Below are positions 99 through 8,994 of a stretch of 8,994 nucleotides of DNA, piece after piece. The translations under genes and the position numbers were made by a program. Origin of the DNA: an uncultured Candidatus Saccharibacteria bacterium. GTDB lineage: Bacteria; Patescibacteria; Saccharimonadia; Saccharimonadales; UBA6022. Position 1 is the stretch's first letter. Each line of letters begins with the position of its first letter. The notes under the pieces are model-generated. The model was not told the origin of the DNA. It made no database searches and was given only the letters and a program-made list of their open reading frames with translations. The stretch is from contig CAMLED010000034.1 of the NCBI GenBank assembly GCA_946479115.1, positions 1 through 8,994 on the forward strand. The letters run 5' to 3'.

Positions 99-181
99 CT
101 CTTCGTAAAGAACCGAGTTTGAGTATCAGGTGAGATGCTCTTTAAAAACTTGGTAAAAGTGATTCAACCATTCATCTACAT

Positions 182-187
182 GGAAGG
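182..187 (+). promoter_or_regulatory. ribosome binding site that decides the ATPase start
   Basis: GGAAGG lies 7 bases before the ATG at 195 and 4 bases before the adjoining ATG at 192. This is a better signal than AGG at 128-130, which lies 4 bases before the first in-frame ATG at 135. It argues that translation starts at 195 (or 192) and not at 135. Confidence 0.6.
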
Positions 188-194
188 TAGTATG

Positions 195-1538
195 ATGTCC
201 CAAAATACTGCTATCAATGCAAGCACTACCCATTCACCTGTACCCCCACAGCCCACGACATTGCCTCAGCTAGCGGCAAATCATTCAACCGTGCTCATCA
301 GCGCAACCACGCTGCCAGAGAAGAACACGGCTAAAGGTGAGCCAAAGAAGATTGAAGATAAGGCCGTTGTCAAGCAGGAAGTCCAACGAGAAAGCCTCAT
401 GGACATCCTGCGAGACGCTTCGGTGCGATACGAACCCAGCAGTTTCAAAGAAAAGATGGTTCATTCGCTTACCGCGGATGCGCGACATGCTGAACACGAA
501 AGTGCTATTAACGCACGGCTTGATCAGGCCATCGCTCTTGCCGAGATCGAATTAATCGACCTTGGCGACGGTGAAGACGGTGTCGACCCCACGATTATTG
601 ACCTCAACCAGAAAGGTGGCGCCGGAAAATCTCCTAACGCAACTAGCGATGGGGTCACACTGGCCGCAAACAACGACCAAGTGATCATTGTGATCGACAA
701 CAACCAGGTTCTGGGCAGTACATTACAGTACCTTGATATCCAGAAGACGCTAGGCGTACGAGACAGTATAAAAATGTTCGAAAAGAACACTACATATGCC
801 CATGTTCGCCGTCATCTAGGACATCATCCGAAGTACAAGAACCTTTACGGTGTTGACTCGGATCCAGAAGACAAACGACGCAACAATCCGATCGATGTTA
901 CTGCGTTCTACAAGTACGCCAAGGGACTGAAGTCGGCATGCCATACACTGATATTCGATAATGGCAATGAAGTCGTCAACGCGCAGACACTTGTTGGACT
1001 TGAGTTAGCAGATGTCTTCCGTTTCGTCACTATCCCGTGGGTCAATGACGCTAACCGGTTATGCAAAGATACAATGGAGGAAACCCGCGCTCTTTACCCC
1101 GAAAAGGTAGCGAATGCCGTCATCTCTGTGAGCGCATGCAAGCCGGACGAGATGAATCTGGAGCATTGGTCAGAATATTTCAGCCACCCGAAAGAACAGA
1201 TCTGCCTGATACCCTACGACCCCATTTTCGATTCACGCTTCACAATTGTCGACGGGAAACGATTGCAAACTGCATGGGTTGTTGACCACACGCAGTTCCA
1301 AAAGCGAACATACCTGGCTAATCTTGAGCGTACTATCCTCACACTCAAGCAAGCACGTAAGGGTATCGAGGCTAAGAAGAAAAGCAACGAAACGGATGAA
1401 GCCATAATCAAGAGGATGCTCGGATTTCTGCAAGCAAGCACTGATCCGAAATCTCCTCAACAGGCCGAAACTGACAAAGCTGCCTTTGAAGCTGCGGTCC
1501 AAGCAGAAGTATACCGCAGGCTACACCCGGCTAGCTAA
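195..1538 (+). CDS. MinD/ParA-type (SIMIBI class) ATPase with proline-rich N-terminus
   Basis: The protein has 447 aa from ATG 195, or 467 aa from ATG 135; residue numbers below use the longer form. The start at 195 is preferred because of its ribosome binding site, and because the extra 20 residues are hydrophobic and unlike a soluble ATPase N-terminus. Residues 20-90 are Ser/Thr/Pro/Gln-rich and probably disordered, and 90-140 look helical. The nucleotide-binding core starts with a deviant Walker A, KGGAGKS (160-166), which carries the signature lysine K160 and the catalytic K165. A Walker A'-like strand IIVIDNN contains D188, and a Walker B-like strand LIFDNGN contains D275. The usual second Thr of the P-loop is Pro167, and Walker B lacks the D-x-P pattern of classical ParA. 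The C-terminal part (IPYDP near 359-363, then a helix after RTYLAN) recalls the MinD-like proteins of actinobacteria, including those linked to ESX secretion. Such ATPases dimerise on ATP and position or regulate membrane machines. The gene converges on the envelope operon; a shared role is inference. By eye its GC content is higher than the operon's. Confidence 0.85.
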   Translation: MSQNTAINASTTHSPVPPQPTTLPQLAANHSTVLISATTLPEKNTAKGEPKKIEDKAVVKQEVQRESLMDILRDASVRYEPSSFKEKMVHSLTADARHAEHESAINARLDQAIALAEIELIDLGDGEDGVDPTIIDLNQKGGAGKSPNATSDGVTLAANNDQVIIVIDNNQVLGSTLQYLDIQKTLGVRDSIKMFEKNTTYAHVRRHLGHHPKYKNLYGVDSDPEDKRRNNPIDVTAFYKYAKGLKSACHTLIFDNGNEVVNAQTLVGLELADVFRFVTIPWVNDANRLCKDTMEETRALYPEKVANAVISVSACKPDEMNLEHWSEYFSHPKEQICLIPYDPIFDSRFTIVDGKRLQTAWVVDHTQFQKRTYLANLERTILTLKQARKGIEAKKKSNETDEAIIKRMLGFLQASTDPKSPQQAETDKAAFEAAVQAEVYRRLHPAS

Positions 1539-1560: not shown

Positions 1561-1593
1561 GCTGGCGCCCAGATCATTGATCAGGGCGCCAGC
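1561..1593 (-). terminator. intrinsic terminator of the envelope operon, possibly bidirectional
   Basis: A perfect 10-bp GC-rich stem (GCTGGCGCCC at 1561-1570 with GGGCGCCAGC at 1584-1593) encloses a 13-base loop that can add a short GATC/GATC pairing. On the minus strand it is followed by TTTGTTGG, a modest T-rich tail, 50 bases beyond the stop of the 897-aa gene. On the plus strand it lies 22 bases beyond the ATPase stop but lacks a T-run. It therefore ends the minus operon best, and may also block plus-strand transcripts in this convergent gap. Confidence 0.75.
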
Positions 1594-1642: not shown

Positions 1643-4336
1643 TTATTTAGTAAAGACAACTGCGCCAAATGTGCTATTAAGAATTGGTTGCGCATTCCAT
1701 GCGCCAGTATTAGTATCTGGTGTCTTTGGATATGGATCGGCTACAAGGAATTTACCGTCCTCAGTGATACCACGTATCAGCACAAAGTGTGCGCCGACAG
1801 ATGGTGCAACGAATGGTGCTGGACCACTACCAGCAGCCAGGATCATGCCCCCATTTTTTAGGATCTCTCGATACGCATTTATATCCTTGAAGTTCTGCAT
1901 TTGTGCACCATTGATACCAAAGCTTTTACCTAGGTTAATAGCAGCGTCAAATGAGGTTCCCTGGTCACCAGGTAGCCACATACGATTGTCGTTAGTAAAT
2001 TTAATAACATCACCAGGATTAATTTCCCTACCAGTGAGTGCGTTTACTGCCATAGCAACAGACGTTGGGCCACACGAAACGTCACAAGCCCGTACACCAT
2101 TCGGTGTGCGAATTTCACCCCATCGCGGATCACACTGATTAAATAGTTTCATCGCTGCTTCGCCAGTCGTTGGCCAACCCGCTAAAATACCATTGCTATT
2201 TGTTTCCTGCTTAGGGGCTCGTGATGCAAGAATTGCCTGGTATTCTGCATTAAATGCATCACCCACTTCATTAGCGTATGCTATGCGCTCTTCATCACGA
2301 TGTGCACTTGGTCGCTCATAGCTCTCACGTACAATAATGGCAGCATCCCGACGATTCGTAGCGGTTTTCAATGCGTTAAATGCCGCGCGCTCCTTACCGA
2401 GCAATTCGTGTTTAATAAATTGCAATTGCGTCATAAAGTCTGCTTGATTTTTCCCGGCAAATGCGCCAAGATCCATAAGCCGTCCGCCTTCCCACTGCGC
2501 AATACCAAATGCAGGACCGCCATTTTGATTGCGGCCAGGATTTAGGTCTGCGCCAGTCTCACCTAATAAGTTCCCCACGAGGCCTGCCGCCTGTGATGGT
2601 GTCATCGCCAACTCGGGATCATCAATAAAGAATTTCATTGCAATACCACGACGTTCCCACACCCCACCACGTCCTGCAAGCTTGTCAGATGCATGGCTAT
2701 AATCACCTTGAGGTGTCGAAGGACCTTGCTCTTGCCTTGGCGCTTCTTGCTTGTATGTAGGTATTTCGATAATCTGTGGTTTAGGTATTTCGAGAGTTGG
2801 CGATATAAGCACTTCTTCAGTAGCTGTTTTGTCCTCACCCAGATTCTCAGGAGTAAGAGTGATCACACCATCTATTACTTTTGGAGCTTTATCTTCGTCG
2901 GTTTCGTGATTGTTTGATTTGTCTGACTCTTTCTCGGACTTTTTATCTAATTTATCCTCGTCTATCTTGACTACACCATCAATAATTGAGACTACCGTTT
3001 CGTCAACTTTGTCTTTTGTTTTATCTGCAGGTGACTGCTCGATAATAGGCTGTGCCGTTACTTTATCTTTTTCATGTGATTTGTCATCAGATTTTTCATT
3101 AGAATCTATTAGATGTGATGGATCAATTAGTATCGCATGATCATCAGGTTTGGCATCATTTTTTGATTTAGCTTCTTGAGTTGCAGGGTCGTTCTTAGGT
3201 TTTTCGGCTATCTTATCCAAAGTAGTCTTGTCAGAATTATTTACTGGCGAATTGTCTTTCTGCTTGGTAGAATTCGTACTCTTCTCATCAGATTTCTTTT
3301 CCGCTGAGATGGGTGTTTCTACTAAGTTATCAGGAATTATAATTGCGTTTTCGGGCTGTTTAGGTTCAACCTTCTTGTCTGTCTTTTCCTGTGGCGACGC
3401 TAGTTCTTTAACAGGCTGGTTCTCTTGCCTAGGCACTTCGATTGCCTGCTTGGTGTCCGATGTAGGCTTTGGTGCCTCGATAGTAACCTTCTTATCGGGT
3501 GTGACAGATTTATCAGACTTAGCAGTACCGTCTGGCACTACTTCGGTCGTCTTGGGACCAGTGTCAGCATGAGCAGCGAATTGAGGAAGCGCGCTTAATA
3601 CGCCGGCAACAGCAACAGACGCAACAGCACGACGAGCAACAGTCCCCACCTTTTCAATCAATGCGTTGGGGTCTTTAAGTTCAGTGCCATAGGCGGCGAC
3701 ACAGACTTTATTTATTGCTTCAAATTTAGCCTTGCTCTCTGGATCCCTTCCTCTTGCATCCTTCCGTGCAGCTCGCAGCCAATCAAGTTTGTATTGCTCT
3801 CCACTCGGAATGACCTGCTGACCTTTTTTAATAGCAGGAATACCTGCACCATATTCTGCAGCAACAACAGCAAGCACGTCAGCCTCGCGTTTAGCACTAG
3901 ATTGCTCGGTTTTTGGTTTTAAATCAATATCTTTCTGCGCCTTAATTGCGGCATCATGCCACTTATCAATATGGGGCTTCAAAGAATCTAGCCCCACAGG
4001 TGCTTCCTTAATCACATCAAGAAATTCATTCGTAACTTCACCGTTTTCGACGACACGCTGGACCGCTTTATCGAAATATACCGCAATCTTGTCATCAAGA
4101 TCTTTATGTAGCTTATCGGCATTAAGTTTCGAACTAGAAAACACATCATCGATTTCAGCATGAACTTCAGCTACCACTTCTTTAAATTCTGCTCGTATTT
4201 GAGCTGGCCCCACTAAATAATTTTGATCACTCTCGATTACTGCATATAGATTCTCAACCTTCTCTTCAACAAAAGTCGTCTCATAAGCATAAGGTTGAGT
4301 GTCTGGCGTGGTAAATGTGTCGGTTGAATGTTCCAT
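1643..4336 (-). CDS. exported two-domain cell-wall hydrolase: phage-tail-type lysozyme plus C39-like cysteine peptidase
   Basis: The protein has 897 aa. Residues 1-230 form a helical, charged N-terminal region with no recognised fold. An export segment follows: R235-R236, a hydrophobic stretch at 237-250, and an A-H-A motif at 255-257 that resembles a signal peptidase site. Residues 258-545 are a Lys/Asp/Ser/Thr/Pro/Glu-rich, probably disordered tether with recurring short hydrophobic motifs. Residues 555-700 match the phage tail lysozyme type (Phage_lysozyme2-like): G-N-L-L-G-E-T-G with candidate catalytic E593, then FGIAQWEGGR. Residues 725-897 match the C39-like peptidase fold: NQCDPRW with Q734, SCGPTS with candidate nucleophile C755, GAHFVLI with H850, and ADPYP with D867. 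The two domains would cut peptidoglycan glycan strands and peptide bonds outside the membrane. It is the last operon gene, 11 bases after its neighbour, with TCCC at 4343-4346 (GGGA on the coding strand) as ribosome binding site 6 bases before the ATG. The domains are recognised from motifs only. The target could be the cell's own wall or that of a host or prey cell. Confidence 0.88.
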   Translation of the reverse strand: MEHSTDTFTTPDTQPYAYETTFVEEKVENLYAVIESDQNYLVGPAQIRAEFKEVVAEVHAEIDDVFSSSKLNADKLHKDLDDKIAVYFDKAVQRVVENGEVTNEFLDVIKEAPVGLDSLKPHIDKWHDAAIKAQKDIDLKPKTEQSSAKREADVLAVVAAEYGAGIPAIKKGQQVIPSGEQYKLDWLRAARKDARGRDPESKAKFEAINKVCVAAYGTELKDPNALIEKVGTVARRAVASVAVAGVLSALPQFAAHADTGPKTTEVVPDGTAKSDKSVTPDKKVTIEAPKPTSDTKQAIEVPRQENQPVKELASPQEKTDKKVEPKQPENAIIIPDNLVETPISAEKKSDEKSTNSTKQKDNSPVNNSDKTTLDKIAEKPKNDPATQEAKSKNDAKPDDHAILIDPSHLIDSNEKSDDKSHEKDKVTAQPIIEQSPADKTKDKVDETVVSIIDGVVKIDEDKLDKKSEKESDKSNNHETDEDKAPKVIDGVITLTPENLGEDKTATEEVLISPTLEIPKPQIIEIPTYKQEAPRQEQGPSTPQGDYSHASDKLAGRGGVWERRGIAMKFFIDDPELAMTPSQAAGLVGNLLGETGADLNPGRNQNGGPAFGIAQWEGGRLMDLGAFAGKNQADFMTQLQFIKHELLGKERAAFNALKTATNRRDAAIIVRESYERPSAHRDEERIAYANEVGDAFNAEYQAILASRAPKQETNSNGILAGWPTTGEAAMKLFNQCDPRWGEIRTPNGVRACDVSCGPTSVAMAVNALTGREINPGDVIKFTNDNRMWLPGDQGTSFDAAINLGKSFGINGAQMQNFKDINAYREILKNGGMILAAGSGPAPFVAPSVGAHFVLIRGITEDGKFLVADPYPKTPDTNTGAWNAQPILNSTFGAVVFTK
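2786..3346 (-). repeat. degenerate hydrophobic motif repeated five times in the hydrolase tether
   Basis: Within the disordered tether of the 897-aa protein, short patches of one pattern recur: AIIIPDNLVE (331-340), AILIDPSHLI (401-410), GVVKIDEDKLD (454-464), GVITLTPENLG (490-500) and EVLISPTLEI (508-517). The third and fourth are each preceded by IID or VID. The common form is roughly two or three alternating Val/Ile/Leu, an acidic or Pro residue, then Leu about four residues on. They are separated by 8 to 60 residues of charged low-complexity sequence. Such patches in a linker usually act as docking motifs for a partner. The DNA itself is not repetitive. Confidence 0.5.
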
Positions 4337-4347
4337 AATTTTTCCCG

Positions 4348-5136
4348 TTATTTATCTGACTTTATCGTTAGTTGTGAAAATATATTTCGTGAACCGGTTG
4401 GTATTGTAGCCCTTCGTAACTCTAGCGGAAGTTGCTGTTGCGACACCTCTACGGTAGGTGCTCTCTGCGGCAAAGGTGGCGGCAACGTAATGGGCACAGA
4501 TATAATAGGCTCTGATGAATTGTCCAGCAGTTGCGTCACCTGTCGCGTATCCGAATCTGAAATAATTGATTCATACTTATACAATTCGTTAAACAGTACA
4601 GGAACAGGCTCGATTTGCGGCATTGCCCCTAACTCCGTAACAGCAACTGCAATATGGCCTAGTATTTTTTTGATTGTAGCAGGACGATTTTCTAACCTCG
4701 CCTTGTATTCTCGATTGTTTTTTATATAAAGCTCACAACTCTGAAGCCGCATATCTAACAATGAAATACTTTTTTTGAGTTGTCGCGCTTCCATACGCAG
4801 CTTACGCAAGTTAGTTGCCAAGATAAAATCTCGATCATCGGCAATGTCGCTATCTGGACCATCCGCTTCGCTCAAATCACTCAATCTATTAAGAGTATCT
4901 GCTATAGCTTCATCGACACGCACCTTATCCTGATATAGCTTCTCTAATTCATGCTTCATACGACTCAAGTCCGTCTGCGCTTCGTCGTAACGATCCTCAA
5001 TCTCAGCCAGTGCCCGATCAACGACACCACCCTCTTGGTGCTCACGAACCACCTCATCAAGTTGCGTACCCAGCTTAAGTATCTCAGAAGATGAGATAGA
5101 GAATTGATCATGTGGTTGAGATTGGCCTTCGTGCAT
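4348..5136 (-). CDS. coiled-coil protein of the envelope operon, unknown function
   Basis: The protein has 262 aa and belongs to no family I recognise. Residues 15-160 are strongly helical with heptad-like spacing of Leu, Ile and Val and many Glu, Lys and Arg residues, which indicates one or two long coiled coils broken near 89-100 (ADGPDSDIADD). Residues 205-240 are proline-rich (LPPPLPQ), and the tail is short and basic. There is no signal peptide or membrane segment, so it should be cytoplasmic, unlike the other four products of the operon. It lies between two membrane or exported proteins, so a scaffolding role on the inner face of the complex is plausible but inferred. The ATG at 5136 is 13 bases after the preceding stop. 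The gap is AT-rich and has no clear Shine-Dalgarno sequence, so translation may depend on coupling to the upstream gene. There is one cysteine, at 134. Confidence 0.85.
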   Translation of the reverse strand: MHEGQSQPHDQFSISSSEILKLGTQLDEVVREHQEGGVVDRALAEIEDRYDEAQTDLSRMKHELEKLYQDKVRVDEAIADTLNRLSDLSEADGPDSDIADDRDFILATNLRKLRMEARQLKKSISLLDMRLQSCELYIKNNREYKARLENRPATIKKILGHIAVAVTELGAMPQIEPVPVLFNELYKYESIISDSDTRQVTQLLDNSSEPIISVPITLPPPLPQRAPTVEVSQQQLPLELRRATIPTGSRNIFSQLTIKSDK

Positions 5137-5149
5137 AATTTAAAATTTT

Positions 5150-6613
5150 CTATTTAGTAGCTTCGGTAGACCCGTCGGCATTAACGGTAAACTGTAATAT
5201 TTTGGTTGAATCTTTATCTAGTGTAAATGCATTTGAATTAGCAGCTACGGGATTCTTAATCAGCATAGGATCTTTAACTTGTGGATCATCTATCTTACCG
5301 ATGCCATCAACTTTCGCTTCTTTATATTTTGACAGGCCTTTGTTATACAAGTCCTCAACCTGCTTCTTAATTGCAGCTTCAATCTTCAATTCAGTATTTG
5401 CACTGGCCTGTTGTGCATATGCTCCAGCTTCATCTGATAGAACCTCAGCCATTCTCATTCGAGCCTGAGCTAGTTCAGCATCTTTATTTGGTCCATCGGC
5501 ATACGCAGCCTTCAAACGGGCACCTTCTTCAGCGGTCATACCCTTACCCGCTATGAATAAATCAACTGTTCCATTAAAGCCATCTTTTATACCAGGCAGG
5601 TTTTGCAATTTTTTATTAACATCAACATATATTTGTGGCGAAACCTTTGAATAATCTACGGTAATCCTATCACCTTCAATCTTTATAACAGATTCACGAT
5701 TAGCCGCTTCGACACATGCGGTGTATCGTACTGGAGTCTCGGTAAGGCTAGTAGTTGGCTTAAAGTAATCTCCTGCCTGAGTTTTTGCAGCAAGTGGATA
5801 TTCGGCACCCGAGGGGTCTTTATACTTCCAGCTCGAAGTGACCGTTGCATCAAATTTTCCACTATAAAGAGCAGGCCCTGCACCGCGCTCATCTAGACAG
5901 CCGCCAAATGCATCAACAATTGTAGCCGGCGCAAGATCAGGAATAGTTGCTGGATCCACCGTTGGTGATTTATCGGGACTAATTGAAGTGTTAGTCGCAT
6001 TAAAACCGAAAGTATTTGTAGTAAGTGCCAGGCCACCAGCCGTTAAGCTAACTGCACCCGCAGTAATCACAGCTACCGTCCCAAGCCTACGTCGACGTGA
6101 CATTTTCTTCTTTGGTGCTTGGTACTCAAGAGTTTCCTCTTTCAATGTCACAGATTGTGCTTCGGTCTTCTGCTCGACTAAAGGCAGCGGCGAATACTCC
6201 TGTGGTTGAGCTGGGGCATAGACTGGATACGCAGGTACAGGTCCACGACTTTTATTCATAAAATCACGAAGTGCATCAGTCTGTTTCTGTTTTTCTGCCG
6301 CTTTTAATGCATTTTCCGCCTCAGCAATTTCTTGCTCAAGTGTAGATGCTAAATCCTGAACTCCTGCAAGCGCATTCTTTAGTTGATCGACATCGAGTAC
6401 GGCTGCAGGTTCTTGCACTGGCAAAAGCATATCGATACGTGGTTGCGGCTGAATAGCAGCACGAAGACCGCCGCTCATAGGTGTTTCGTCCGACTGAACT
6501 CTAACATATTTGCTAACCCCACCAGGAAATTCTTTAAGCTCATAAAGCTTTCCGTCGATATTTTTTTGTTTTGGCTTCTCGCCCGAAAGAGGTGATTGTA
6601 AATTACGCTCCAT
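5150..6613 (-). CDS. single-span membrane protein with cytoplasmic coiled coil and Cys-containing outer domain
   Basis: The protein has 487 aa from the ATG at 6613. An upstream in-frame ATG at 6682 would overlap the preceding gene by 68 bases and has no supporting signal, while AGGA (6621-6624) lies 7 bases before 6613. Residues 1-60 hold a small Tyr/Val-rich segment (IDGKLYELKEF). Residues 73-120 form a coiled coil, and 123-146 are Pro/Tyr-rich (PVPAYPVYAPAQP). A basic cluster (KKKMSRRRR, 168-176) precedes one membrane span at about 178-197, so the positive-inside rule puts the N-terminus in the cytoplasm and residues 200-487 outside. The outer part holds two cysteines, C239 and C300, which could form a disulphide. 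The segment from C300 aligns without gaps to one around C120 of the 330-aa product, so the two outer domains are probably related, possibly of DUF4230 type (from memory, unchecked). Residues 360-435 are helical. The function is unknown; a structural part of an envelope complex fits best. Confidence 0.88.
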   Translation of the reverse strand: MERNLQSPLSGEKPKQKNIDGKLYELKEFPGGVSKYVRVQSDETPMSGGLRAAIQPQPRIDMLLPVQEPAAVLDVDQLKNALAGVQDLASTLEQEIAEAENALKAAEKQKQTDALRDFMNKSRGPVPAYPVYAPAQPQEYSPLPLVEQKTEAQSVTLKEETLEYQAPKKKMSRRRRLGTVAVITAGAVSLTAGGLALTTNTFGFNATNTSISPDKSPTVDPATIPDLAPATIVDAFGGCLDERGAGPALYSGKFDATVTSSWKYKDPSGAEYPLAAKTQAGDYFKPTTSLTETPVRYTACVEAANRESVIKIEGDRITVDYSKVSPQIYVDVNKKLQNLPGIKDGFNGTVDLFIAGKGMTAEEGARLKAAYADGPNKDAELAQARMRMAEVLSDEAGAYAQQASANTELKIEAAIKKQVEDLYNKGLSKYKEAKVDGIGKIDDPQVKDPMLIKNPVAANSNAFTLDKDSTKILQFTVNADGSTEATK

Positions 6614-6614
6614 A

Positions 6615-7004
6615 TTATTTTCCTGTAACCTTTTCTGTAATAAACTTAGTTTTATCATCAATATCATTAAGCAAGTTACCACTTAGATGATCGTAGTTAA
6701 TCTGATCCATTCGATTTGTCACAACTTTTGTGCCTGCATCAACCGCAATATATGTAGCACCGTACAGAACTGAAATACCAGCAGCACCCAATGCCATCTT
6801 TCCAGCAAAACGAGCAAAACGACGATTACGCACTCGCGGCTCATTATCAGCAGCTACTTCATCAGATTCGTATAGCTGTACTTGTGACCGTTCTGGCATA
6901 AGTGGCTGATCTACCACTTCATATGTATCGTTCTCTACATCATGAACATACTCATCGCCATCGATAATAACCTTTACGTATCGCACTTGCTGTTCGTGAT
7001 TCAT
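6615..7004 (-). CDS. small single-span membrane protein of the envelope operon
   Basis: The protein has 129 aa and no recognised family. Residues 1-35 are a polar, Tyr/Val/Asp-rich segment (VKVIIDGDEYVHDV) that weakly resembles the N-terminus of the next gene's product. Residues 36-56 are acidic. The basic cluster RVRNRRFARFAGK (57-69) leads into one membrane span at about 70-88, followed by a short outer tail of about 40 residues without cysteine. The predicted topology is N-terminus inside, as in its neighbours. It is separated by one base from the gene on each side. The ATG at 7004 is preceded by AAGGGG (7014-7019), placed inside the end of the upstream gene, so translation is probably coupled. 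Size and topology suggest an accessory or bridging subunit. Confidence 0.85.
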   Translation of the reverse strand: MNHEQQVRYVKVIIDGDEYVHDVENDTYEVVDQPLMPERSQVQLYESDEVAADNEPRVRNRRFARFAGKMALGAAGISVLYGATYIAVDAGTKVVTNRMDQINYDHLSGNLLNDIDDKTKFITEKVTGK

Positions 7005-7005
7005 T

Positions 7006-7998
7006 TTAACGATCCCCTTGTATGGCTGATTTTACGGCACTACCCTTTAGAGCAGCATCTTTAACAGCCTGTGATACGTCGCAGCTTCCAACCGTATCAT
7101 TATTAACGGTAAGTGTATTATTTTTTGCTCTTAGGTCCTGTAGTGAAGCATACGCACCGTCGACACTTGTCTTCTTGCCGACAATTTGCGCAGCATTTTC
7201 TTCTTCGCTTTTAGCATCGCCAATTAATATGGTCGTATTATTGCGAGTTAGTGCCTTGTCATATAGTCGAGCACCTAGCAAAACACTGTTGGAGACACCG
7301 TCTGAAAATGATGGCTCTACTACTGGCCATACTTTAGATGTACAGTTATCGCCCACTGCTTTTGTACCGCTCACTAATGCGGCCATTGCCAATGCACCAC
7401 CTGCTTCATCATTTCCGCTTGTAAGATCTTTAATAAAACCTACATCCTCAAGGAATGGTGTTGCCTTAAAGACATTCATAATATTTTCGACAGGTACAGC
7501 TGTTGGACTCATGTCGCTGCTAGGATGAATTGATTCAGGTAATATATGTACATCTGATGTAATAGCGTCTTTATCGATGTGAACAGTGATATGGTGGTTC
7601 TCTTTATCGAGGGTTGCTTTTGCAGTTGTTGCATCCATGCACAATTCCGTAGCTACTTGGAATTTTTCTGTCTGACTTTTCCATAACCATTCAAAATCAC
7701 CAACCTTGTTAGAGTATTTTGTCGTTGCCGCAACTTCTGTCGTAAATCCCGTGTAACAGACCTTTTCAAGATCTAGGTCGATGTCAATTACTCTTTGATC
7801 TCCGATGCTTAGAGTTGTTCCCTGAGTGAGAGGGATCATCTCGGAAAGGTTTTTACCTACCGCACTAAAGGCGGCAACTCCAACCGCAGCAGCCCCTATC
7901 GATTGCATAACGCGTTTTTTACGATGCTCGGCATCACCCCATTTAGAAAATTCACCTACGAATCCTCGACCAACTATCTCAGCAGCTTTAAGCAACAT
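7006..7998 (-). CDS. single-span membrane protein with Cys-rich outer domain, first gene of the envelope operon
   Basis: The protein has 330 aa. The ATG at 7998 follows GGAG (8007-8010) at 8 bases. A short cytoplasmic N-terminus of about 28 residues ends in H-R-K-K-R (25-29), then comes an Ala/Val/Gly-rich membrane segment (about 31-47). The rest is outside. The outer part has four cysteines (C81, C120, C219, C306), enough for two disulphides. Residues 68-152 look beta-rich and resemble the outer domain of the 487-aa product, with an ungapped match starting at C120 (C-M-D-A against C-V-E-A, then a shared I-T-V strand). The layout recalls DUF4230 proteins, but this is a recollection and not a search result. 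Residues 175-330 are mostly helical with several NNT or NCT sequons of no known meaning in bacteria. The function is unknown. It is the promoter-proximal gene, so a transcript that passes the leader terminator makes it first. Confidence 0.87.
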   Translation of the reverse strand: MLLKAAEIVGRGFVGEFSKWGDAEHRKKRVMQSIGAAAVGVAAFSAVGKNLSEMIPLTQGTTLSIGDQRVIDIDLDLEKVCYTGFTTEVAATTKYSNKVGDFEWLWKSQTEKFQVATELCMDATTAKATLDKENHHITVHIDKDAITSDVHILPESIHPSSDMSPTAVPVENIMNVFKATPFLEDVGFIKDLTSGNDEAGGALAMAALVSGTKAVGDNCTSKVWPVVEPSFSDGVSNSVLLGARLYDKALTRNNTTILIGDAKSEEENAAQIVGKKTSVDGAYASLQDLRAKNNTLTVNNDTVGSCDVSQAVKDAALKGSAVKSAIQGDR

Positions 7999-8075: not shown

Positions 8076-8118
8076 AAACAAAAAACGGGTGGGCACGCTA
8101 TTCGCGCATCCACCCGTT
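8076..8118 (-). terminator. intrinsic terminator inside the operon leader (candidate attenuator)
   Basis: On the minus strand AACGGGTGG (8118 down to 8110) pairs perfectly with CCACCCGTT (8092 down to 8084). A short CGC/GCG inner stem can form, and TTTTTTGTTT follows immediately. This is a textbook intrinsic terminator. It lies downstream of the operon promoter (8152-8180) and upstream of the first operon gene, so it would stop transcripts after about 70 nt unless it is bypassed. A competing pairing is visible: GGGTG at 8130-8126, upstream of the stem, can pair with the CACCC of the 3' arm and so open the terminator. If no such switching occurs, it marks the 3' end of a small RNA, or a backup terminator for trhO. 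Confidence 0.8.
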
Positions 8119-8145
8119 GAAACAACACCCAACCAACTTACATTT
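8076..8145 (-). ncRNA. predicted short leader RNA (about 70 nt) upstream of the envelope operon
   Basis: The promoter at 8152-8180 predicts transcription from about 8145, and the intrinsic terminator ends near 8076. The expected terminated product is a structured RNA of about 70 nt that also carries a small GTTG-TTT-CAAC hairpin overlapping the terminator arm. It does not match any riboswitch, T-box, 6S or tRNA-like pattern I know. It may be only the terminated form of the operon leader and not an independent regulator. Confidence 0.35.
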
Positions 8146-8151
8146 GTAGTG

Positions 8152-8180
8152 ATAATATACTCTTTATTTACTAATGTCAA
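8152..8180 (-). promoter_or_regulatory. near-consensus sigma70 promoter for the envelope operon
   Basis: On the minus strand a perfect -35 TTGACA (8180 down to 8175) is followed by exactly 17 bases and a -10 TATTAT (8157 down to 8152, 5 of 6 consensus bases). The predicted start is near 8145. The -35 box adjoins the T-tract of the trhO terminator, so the operon is insulated from trhO and has its own strong promoter. I found no comparable promoter between the leader terminator and the ATG at 7998. Confidence 0.85.
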
Positions 8181-8181
8181 C

Positions 8182-8215
8182 AAAAAATAGCGTTTTATAA
8201 CAGTAAAAAACGCTA
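8182..8215 (-). terminator. intrinsic terminator of trhO
   Basis: On the minus strand TAGCGTTTT (8215 down to 8207) pairs with AAAACGCTA (8196 down to 8188) across a 10-base loop, followed by TTTTTTG. It starts 28 bases after the trhO stop codon. The stem is perfect but AT-rich, so it may leak. Confidence 0.75.
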
Positions 8216-8243: not shown

Positions 8244-8994
8244 TTAAGCGCTAGCTGTAGCGCCTAGTTTAGCATTACTACGACATATATCGGTATGGAA
8301 CAGCAAATCAGGATTTTGTTTACAATGCAGGCAAATCAAAACCAGGTCATTACAGTTCGCCCAAGCACAGTTTTCAAAGTTATTCGTTGGGCCTTGGCAA
8401 TGACTACATTCGCCAATCGTCGCCGTATGATCACTAAAATCAACCGTCATACGATTATCAAATACACGCAGGCTACCTTCCCATAATCCATCATCACCGT
8501 AGGCTTCACCGTACTTTACGATACCGCCATCAATTTGATAGACGTCTTTGAAGCCACGCTTTTTCATCATGGCGCTAATCACTTCACAGCGGATACCGCC
8601 CGTACAGTACGTAATAATTTTCTTGTCTTTGATATCATCATATTTATCACTCTCAAGCTCGGCAATAAAATCACGTGATGTATTAGTGTTCGGCACAATC
8701 GCATTTTTGAATTTACCAATTTTAGCTTCGTGCTCATTACGACCGTCAAAGAAAATAACATCGTCGCCGTACTGCTCGATCATTTCGTGAATTTGTTTTG
8801 GCTTGATGTGTTTACCGCCACCAACAACGCCATTTTCGTTGACTTCAAATTCATTATCACTATTCTTAAATCCAACTAGTTCACGTCGAGTCTTTACGCT
8901 CATGCGTGGGAAATCTTCACGGCTACCATCACTCCATTTAAAGACAACGTCTTTAAAGCCCGGGTATTGTTTGGTTGCTTTGATGTAGGCCTTT
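8244..8994 (-). CDS. trhO: tRNA uridine-34 hydroxylase of the rhodanese family (partial, 5' end outside the window)
   Basis: The 3' 249 codons are present, read from 8993, and the frame stays open to the window edge. The ATG at 8903 is internal: the preceding residues ([10 protein letters not shown] before MSVKTRREL) match the conserved region ahead of the rhodanese domain in TrhO/YceA proteins. The family is usually 300-350 aa, so roughly the first 70-100 residues are missing. The rhodanese domain holds [15 protein letters not shown] and the active-site loop YCTGGIRCE, with the catalytic Cys codon at 8604-8606. The C-terminal extension has a Cys-rich pattern typical of the family (C-S-H-C, C-A-W-A-N-C, C-L-H-C, then a last Cys), probably metal-binding or structural. 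TrhO hydroxylates U34 of certain tRNAs to 5-hydroxyuridine in an oxygen-dependent reaction. It ends in its own terminator and appears unrelated to the envelope operon. Confidence 0.93.

Follow-up and report, generated by a model that had tools for sequence, protein, structure and literature searches.

How do Saccharibacteria, very small bacteria believed to live on other bacterial cells, breach or tap the walls of their hosts? A locus that may bear on this lies on contig CAMLED010000034.1 (GenBank assembly GCA_946479115.1) of an uncultured Candidatus Saccharibacteria bacterium, in a stretch of 8,994 nucleotides that we call the window. Five minus-strand open reading frames (ORFs), A to E, follow one another there with intergenic gaps of 1, 1, 13 and 11 bases (ORF listing and translation; the start of C is the ATG at 6613), and the last of them encodes a peptidoglycan hydrolase. 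An earlier note, made from the letters of the window, had described an envelope operon and inferred that its products form one assembly, which may be wall-spanning and which delivers or positions wall-cleaving activity, possibly at the contact with a host cell if the organism is an episymbiont. What do these genes build, and whose wall does E cut? Comparisons of sequence and gene order indicate that the five genes have stayed together as an operon in distantly related members of the Saccharibacteria class, in which the operon is rare and patchy. It quite possibly encodes a dedicated accessory envelope assembly that exports swappable wall hydrolases, with the wall of a neighbour, the host, as a likelier target than the cell's own. 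The observation in the earlier note is confirmed, and its interpretation is partly supported.

An operon of five genes in nine loci

The same five genes stand in the same order at eight further loci, which bears out the operon first seen in the window. The order A-B-C-D-E is therefore common to the window, L001 (genome G001), L174 (G409), L176 (G218), L177 (G345), L178 (G105), L221 (G100), and L338 and L339 (G255 and G204). L001 belongs to a named Saccharibacteria metagenome-assembled genome, RYN_423, and was the sole locus among 74 in a scan of GTDB genomes to match E over residues 41-897. It is arranged as in the window, in the order trhO, A, B, C, D, E, a convergent ParA-like gene and uvrC. 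The other carrier genomes come from the class or family to which G001 belongs. L174, L176, L177 and L178 were found around E-like matches and L221 through a census of uvrC loci, while L338 and L339 came from a profile of eight A proteins that was built without them (E 3e-17 and 6e-7). With the A profile, seven of 392 class genomes were positive, two of them new (G255 and G204) and five having contributed a row to the profile itself. Four further matches to a C profile (in G060, G311, G081 and G097) were rejected, as inspection of their loci revealed no operon. Searches of a protein database found two relatives of A and four of C; among the four were the C of the window itself and one identical or nearly identical to that of L001. 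Such word-based searches were weak because A to D diverge too fast; synteny and profiles built from synteny worked. The UvrC proteins of the loci are as low as 59% and up to 76% identical, so the gene order is kept far beyond close relatives.

A to D have diverged far more than their flanks. Between the window and L001, TrhO is 83% identical, the catalytic part of E 67% and the N-terminal region of E 30%, and identity is 22% for A, 31% for B, 31% for C, 23% for D and 24% for the ParA-like protein. Likewise, L001 compared with L174, L176 and L178 shows 61-76% identity in UvrC but 22-24% in A, 19-26% in B, 22-25% in C and 22% in D. Profiles of A that left out one locus at a time recovered five of seven loci (window, L001, L174, L176 and L178; E 3e-4 to 9e-16) and missed L177 and L221. 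Shuffled pairwise comparisons connected the A proteins of the window and L178 (z 9.3), L178 and L338 (z 18.3), L176 and L177 (z 13.9), and L178 and L339 (z 7.6). At least four cysteines follow the span of A in all nine loci, at spacings of 39-45, 92-112 and 80-97 in seven of them (L221 and L339 differ). For C, the z scores were 37.5 for the window and L001, 10.7 for L001 and L174, 8.1 for L176 and L221, and 5.4 for the window and L221. At one uniform threshold, a span is predicted in every A and C and in eight of the nine B proteins, that of L178 falling just below.

Hydropathy places single spans in the window proteins at about residue 30 in A, 70 in B and 180 in C. This agrees with the one span each that had been assigned to them, but the outer domain attributed to B shrinks to about 40 residues. 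D had been read as a soluble coiled coil. It matches coiled-coil families weakly (Pfam and NCBIfam) and has no 19-residue span by hydropathy, though there is one borderline 15-residue stretch at 158. As the earlier note had recognised no family with confidence beyond the hydrolase domains, so A to D fall below every curated cut-off in Pfam and NCBIfam. With PHROGs included, the lowest E-values were 0.063 for A, 0.032 for C and 2.8e-4, to a coiled-coil family, for D; the best match of B was a PHROG of unknown function (E 0.0085). None of the three libraries gave a known secretion-system component above cut-off among A to D. The families of A and C also matched no such component in Pfam and had no convincing match by sequence among solved structures, and Foldseek and VIA found no convincing PDB match for the low-confidence model of A. 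Among the anti-phage defence models of PADLOC, A, C and E had no match, D aligned only to the coiled-coil parts of longer models (best E 3.8e-4), and B had one weak match over 41 residues, to Csx1 (E 0.01). The earlier note had named an order confined to close relatives and a match to a known system as findings that would speak against it; with a conserved order and no known-system match, its proposal came through both tests.

Two relationships of A and C were considered and given up. That they are paralogues was rejected, as profile comparison gave a 20% probability over 38 columns, and a supposed resemblance to DUF4230 was dropped, since DUF4230 is absent from the Pfam matches of eight members of each family at E <= 5 in a search whose HMMER filters discard most matches above 0.1.

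Across the loci, neighbouring operon genes are mostly separated or overlapped by a few bases; the larger overlaps computed in L221 and L339 result from a mechanical choice of starts. Three loci contain an additional gene, which stands between A and B in L177, ahead of A in L174 and between B and C in L339. An extra operon gene of L177 (14369-15886) encodes one span and then an Exo_endo_phos domain (E 1.8e-8), and this layout of an inner N-terminus and an outer enzyme is like that of its operon partners. Directly after E in L221, 13234-13908 encodes a single-span protein with an outer part that, by eye, resembles a cohesin.

The hydrolase E and the type IV secretion system

E had been described as an exported double-domain hydrolase. 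Both domains are recognised by Pfam (Table 1), but E is not simply exported, as about 236 residues precede its signal-like segment. C755, H850 and D867, presumably the catalytic residues of the Peptidase_C39_2 domain, are invariant in 13 of 13 aligned sequences, and so is Glu593, which we take to be catalytic in the Phage_lysozyme2 domain. The first hydrophobic segment of E starts at residue 181-329 in all nine loci, and it is followed in eight by a small-x-small junction, judged by eye, of the kind cut by signal peptidase. A profile of the window-type N-terminal region found, in the eight carrier genomes, no second protein that has it besides E itself in G001, the regions of the other seven E proteins being too diverged to be caught. 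L174 does contain a second hydrolase gene, X, with an N-terminal region like that of its own E (z 5.3; 0 of 200 shuffles). The C39-type domain of X scores 18.9 bits in Pfam, below the cut-off of 24, and is 32% identical to the C39 part of the window (E 6e-25).

The catalytic domains of E differ between loci. Pfam recognises a lysozyme in eight of the nine E proteins and a peptidase in eight, the peptidase of L174 sitting in gene X instead. The peptidase is of the C39 class in the window, in L001 (from the domains listed for a near-identical copy, P0009) and in X of L174, VanY in L176, L178 and L339, CHAP in L177, C39 plus M23 in L221, and M23 in L338. A further homologue of E, P0020, carries a FlgJ-type glucosaminidase. 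Of the 21 relatives of E in the database at E <= 0.001, one (P0007) is named Candidatus Saccharimonadales. Matches to E occur in 167 of the 392 class genomes, but the loci read there mostly hold hydrolases of a type IV secretion system (T4SS) cluster, so E is no marker of the operon.

Most Phage_lysozyme2 proteins in the loci read sit in this T4SS cluster, together with TrbL, PrgI, TraC-N, VirB4 and a protein of about 1000 amino acids; the cluster adjoins recF, dnaN and dnaA (names read by eye). The 40 loci surveyed were chosen for lysozyme or C39 matches, mostly with long open frames, and are not a random sample. An essential role of the T4SS in S. epibionticum, determined by transposon sequencing (Tn-seq), is reported in PMC10633639, and PMC12102498 notes that virB4 is directly followed by genes for homologues of a peptidase and a lysozyme, which are also essential. 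G001 has both kinds of hydrolase, a T4SS-cluster copy of 442 amino acids and an operon E of 920, which are 31% identical over 327 residues. Phage_lysozyme2 and C39 or M23 domains are the same families in both settings. The hydrolases differ in their front ends, as operon E has 180-330 residues before the signal-like segment; among 29 T4SS-cluster lysozymes, a set chosen mostly for long frames, the first hydrophobic segment has a median start at residue 11 and starts beyond residue 100 in none. As far as sequence can tell, E is related to the T4SS lysozyme but has been rebuilt and has acquired a new front end.

The operon itself is not the known Saccharibacterial T4SS (MPF-FATA type). No VirB4 was found among the window operon proteins (Pfam and NCBIfam) or in the operon loci (BLAST with a Saccharibacterial VirB4), and the operon loci likewise have no BLAST homologue of PrgI, TrbL or TraC. 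T4SS reference proteins from the L031 cluster, used to look for membrane proteins of the PrgI/VirB3 and TrbL/VirB6 types, had no BLAST match to A to D, although remote relatives could escape such a search; the locus searches were run against small local databases, which makes their E-values lenient. VirB4 (75-84% identical) lies elsewhere in the genome in six of the eight carriers, which therefore hold both systems, and this is in line with the earlier note's view that the operon belongs to no known secretion system. No VirB4 was found in G345 and G409, the latter having other T4SS genes at a contig edge. In G105 the usual VirB4 is accompanied by another, diverged copy (40% identity) at 120346-122049 of contig C11, whose reading frame is interrupted by one in-frame TGA.

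Flanking genes, insertion site and control region

The features of the window are collected in Table 1.

Table 1. Genes, protein regions and signals in the window (aa, amino acids)
Feature	Position	Strand	Description	Basis
Gene A	7006..7998	-	330 aa; short N-terminus predicted in the cytoplasm, one span, 4 conserved Cys in the outer domain	
Gene B	6615..7004	-	129 aa; N-terminus predicted in the cytoplasm, span near residue 70, short tail outside	
Gene C	5150..6613	-	487 aa; predicted cytoplasmic part of about 180 aa, span, outer domain	
Gene D	4348..5136	-	262 aa; coiled coil, probably soluble	
Gene E	1643..4336	-	897 aa; bifunctional peptidoglycan hydrolase	Domain matches
E residues 1-236	3629..4336	-	Region before the signal-like segment; proposed docking domain	Architecture
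E residues 237-257	3566..3628	-	Hydrophobic signal-like segment ending AHA|D	Sequence
Phage_lysozyme2 domain of E	2252..2635	-	PF18013, residues 568-695; E 8.8e-25, 88.0 bits (cut-off 28.2)	Pfam
Peptidase_C39_2 domain of E	1730..2149	-	PF13529, residues 730-869; E 1.3e-8, 35.9 bits (cut-off 24)	Pfam
trhO (partial)	8244..8993	-	Upstream flank; TrhO, E 2.7e-55	NCBIfam; synteny
ParA/MinD-like gene	180..1538	+	Convergent; P-loop KGGAGKS; library matches below cut-offs	Start from L001 alignment
Promoter-like site	8152..8180	-	TTGACA-17-TATTAT (11/12) of the operon; kept in L001	Motif
Leader hairpin	8084..8117	-	Followed by a T run, about 85 bases before A; terminator or attenuator	Folding
Strong hairpin	1561..1593		Between E and the ParA-like gene; z -3.7 and -6.7 on the two strands	

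Upstream of the operon stands trhO in the window, L001, L174 (with X between), L176 and L221 (with two multi-span genes between). On the other side, uvrC follows in L001, L174, L176, L178 and L221; it is separated from the operon by the ParA-like gene in L001 and L174 and by one further gene in L221. The operons of L177, L338 and L339 were not observed at this position. In the window, the noncoding stretch 1-154, 5' of the ParA-like gene, is 83% identical to the gap between the ParA-like gene and uvrC in L001, so uvrC probably lies just beyond the window. This stretch and its L001 counterpart both fold into two similar hairpins. In the uvrC census (L182-L281), trhO and uvrC were both found in 41 of 100 loci, which is a lower bound; they were at most 100 bases apart in 17 of these 41 and more than 2 kb apart with varied inserts in 14, and only L221 contained the operon. 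The census took 100 of 147 searched genomes by E-value order and excluded plus-strand matches with little preceding contig; some of its stretches were short, five of the 100 being about 5.4 kb or less.

The ParA-like gene adjoins the operon in three of the nine loci, in L001 at 12774-14312 and in L174 at 2329-3600 as well as in the window, and two of the three genes have the deviant P-loop KGGAGK[ST]P. Its product may position the assembly, and its membership in the system is uncertain. The operon is bounded by two strong hairpins. Promoter-type sites as such are not enriched in the window (16 found, 17.9 expected by chance). The promoter and leader (8084-8190) are 89% identical over 103 nucleotides in L001 of G001, though A itself is only 22% identical. 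A search with the leader in 392 genomes gave 11 matches, the ten besides G001 being short and weak (E 1.6e-4 or worse). With two sequences to compare, the leader stretch may serve to attenuate the operon, or part of it may terminate trhO. Short open frames were noticed in the leader upstream of A, and Rfam had no match in the window at gathering scores.

Whose wall does E cut?

In the proposed envelope assembly, the cytoplasmic tails of A, B and C would form a membrane platform together with the coiled coil D, and E would dock on it via its N-terminal region. E would then be exported, probably by Sec, and either released by signal peptidase or retained at the platform site, where it would cut glycan and peptide bonds of the wall beside the platform. 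A neighbour's wall is, in our view, a more likely target than the cell's own because catalytic domains are swapped between loci and A to D evolve very fast. A foreign wall is also favoured by the rarity of the operon and by the nuclease-like Exo_endo_phos enzyme of L177, which has no obvious role in growth of the own wall; none of these points is proof. A host cell may be the target. The operon cannot be a general host-contact machine, as it is rare, with A in seven of 392 class genomes. A bolder version, which we consider possible but rather doubtful, is an undescribed hydrolase-delivery machine of epibionts, distinct from the T4SS, in which a four-protein membrane platform would export, at host contact, enzymes with a cytoplasmic docking domain ahead of a signal sequence, and platform and docking code would co-evolve quickly with the host. 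Its cargo would be wall hydrolases in all nine loci and possibly the nuclease-like enzyme in L177.

Several results weigh against the proposed assembly. Leave-one-out profiles recovered no C and no D, and B marginally (window, E 0.035). Profile alignment recovered C in three of seven loci (window 91%, L001 95%, L221 73%), missing it in L174, L176, L177 and L178, and for A it was poor in L174 (50%) and L177 (35%) and gave nothing in L221. Given this weak recovery, B, D and much of C in distant loci are placed by position, length and topology. The topology has exceptions too, as a borderline hydrophobic stretch is present in D of three loci out of nine, including the window, and C has a second, weaker one in four. 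The modelled folds of A and C are of low confidence (predicted local distance difference test, pLDDT, 55.7 and 45.4), so a wall-spanning complex of A to E is a proposal. For most pairs of loci, no relationship can be detected between the N-terminal regions of E, which means that the name docking domain rests on architecture; E of L177 has no clear small-x-small junction by eye, and that of L339 no glycosidase recognised by Pfam. Lastly, T4SS-cluster hydrolases vary in domain content as well, so domain swapping alone does not prove a foreign target.

It is unlikely, in our judgement, that A to D place E on the cell's own wall, whether for cell separation, swarmer budding or opening it for another appendage. 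Epibionts must remodel their own wall, and single-span proteins and coiled coils recruit many hydrolases, FtsEX at division being one example. Membrane proteins would position a wall hydrolase in both cases, but the operon has no ABC ATPase, is rare and has no family match. With A in so few genomes, it is not required for ordinary growth, and a constant own wall would favour neither the swapping of peptidase classes nor the divergence of A to D. A secreted bacteriolysin, with E released to kill competitors or other epibionts and A to D serving export or self-protection, seems improbable. Fusions of a glycosidase and a peptidase are like secreted lysins, and the signal-peptidase-like junction (by eye) in eight of nine E copies would suit it, as would the patchy occurrence of the operon, some of it in an interval where inserts vary. 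No immunity family was recognised among A to D in Pfam, NCBIfam, PHROGs or PADLOC, however, and several conserved membrane proteins and a pre-signal region exceed the needs of a plain secreted lysin.

The kinship of E with the T4SS-cluster hydrolase and the VirB4 of six carriers would also fit an accessory module of the known T4SS, that is, a VirB1-like hydrolase with its own scaffold. We regard this as distinctly improbable, since the operon is a separate locus whose A to D are not matched by T4SS reference proteins, the T4SS clusters of the carriers G001, G409 and G255 contain their own lysozyme, and none of the seven genomes with A is among those in the T4SS-locus survey. VirB1-like or PrgK-type multidomain hydrolases of Gram-positive conjugation are similar in that a single protein, secreted or anchored, combines glycosidase and peptidase domains and serves a membrane machine; the operon differs in lacking nearby conjugation genes and in having four orphan partners and a large pre-signal region. 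That the operon is left over from a prophage or another mobile element is hardly credible, even though the lysozyme part of E matches tail tape-measure PHROGs (E 2.5e-14) and unnamed ones and the interval between trhO and uvrC carries varied inserts. The tape-measure match covers the lysozyme only, A to D have only weak PHROG matches to phage families of known function, and searches of 50,697 phage and 72,556 plasmid records found no match to C. In addition, the architecture of E is kept in nine loci, and the same flanks recur in several distant genomes. The modular lysozyme and peptidase are shared with bacteriolysins, phage endolysins and tape-measure lysozymes (PHROG matches), but the operon adds three membrane proteins and a coiled coil, and no phage structural genes were recognised.

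PMC10633639 names the T4SS, type IV (T4) pili and adhesins as players in the interaction of Saccharibacteria with host walls. The literature searched, including passages of PMC10633639, PMC12102498, PMC8080830 and PMC12857230, does not mention the operon, which does not prove that it is unpublished. Among candidates for host specificity, a second, unrelated and fast-evolving operon built on swappable wall hydrolases would be a concrete one, and the order of large region, signal and enzyme could mark exported cargo in these genomes.

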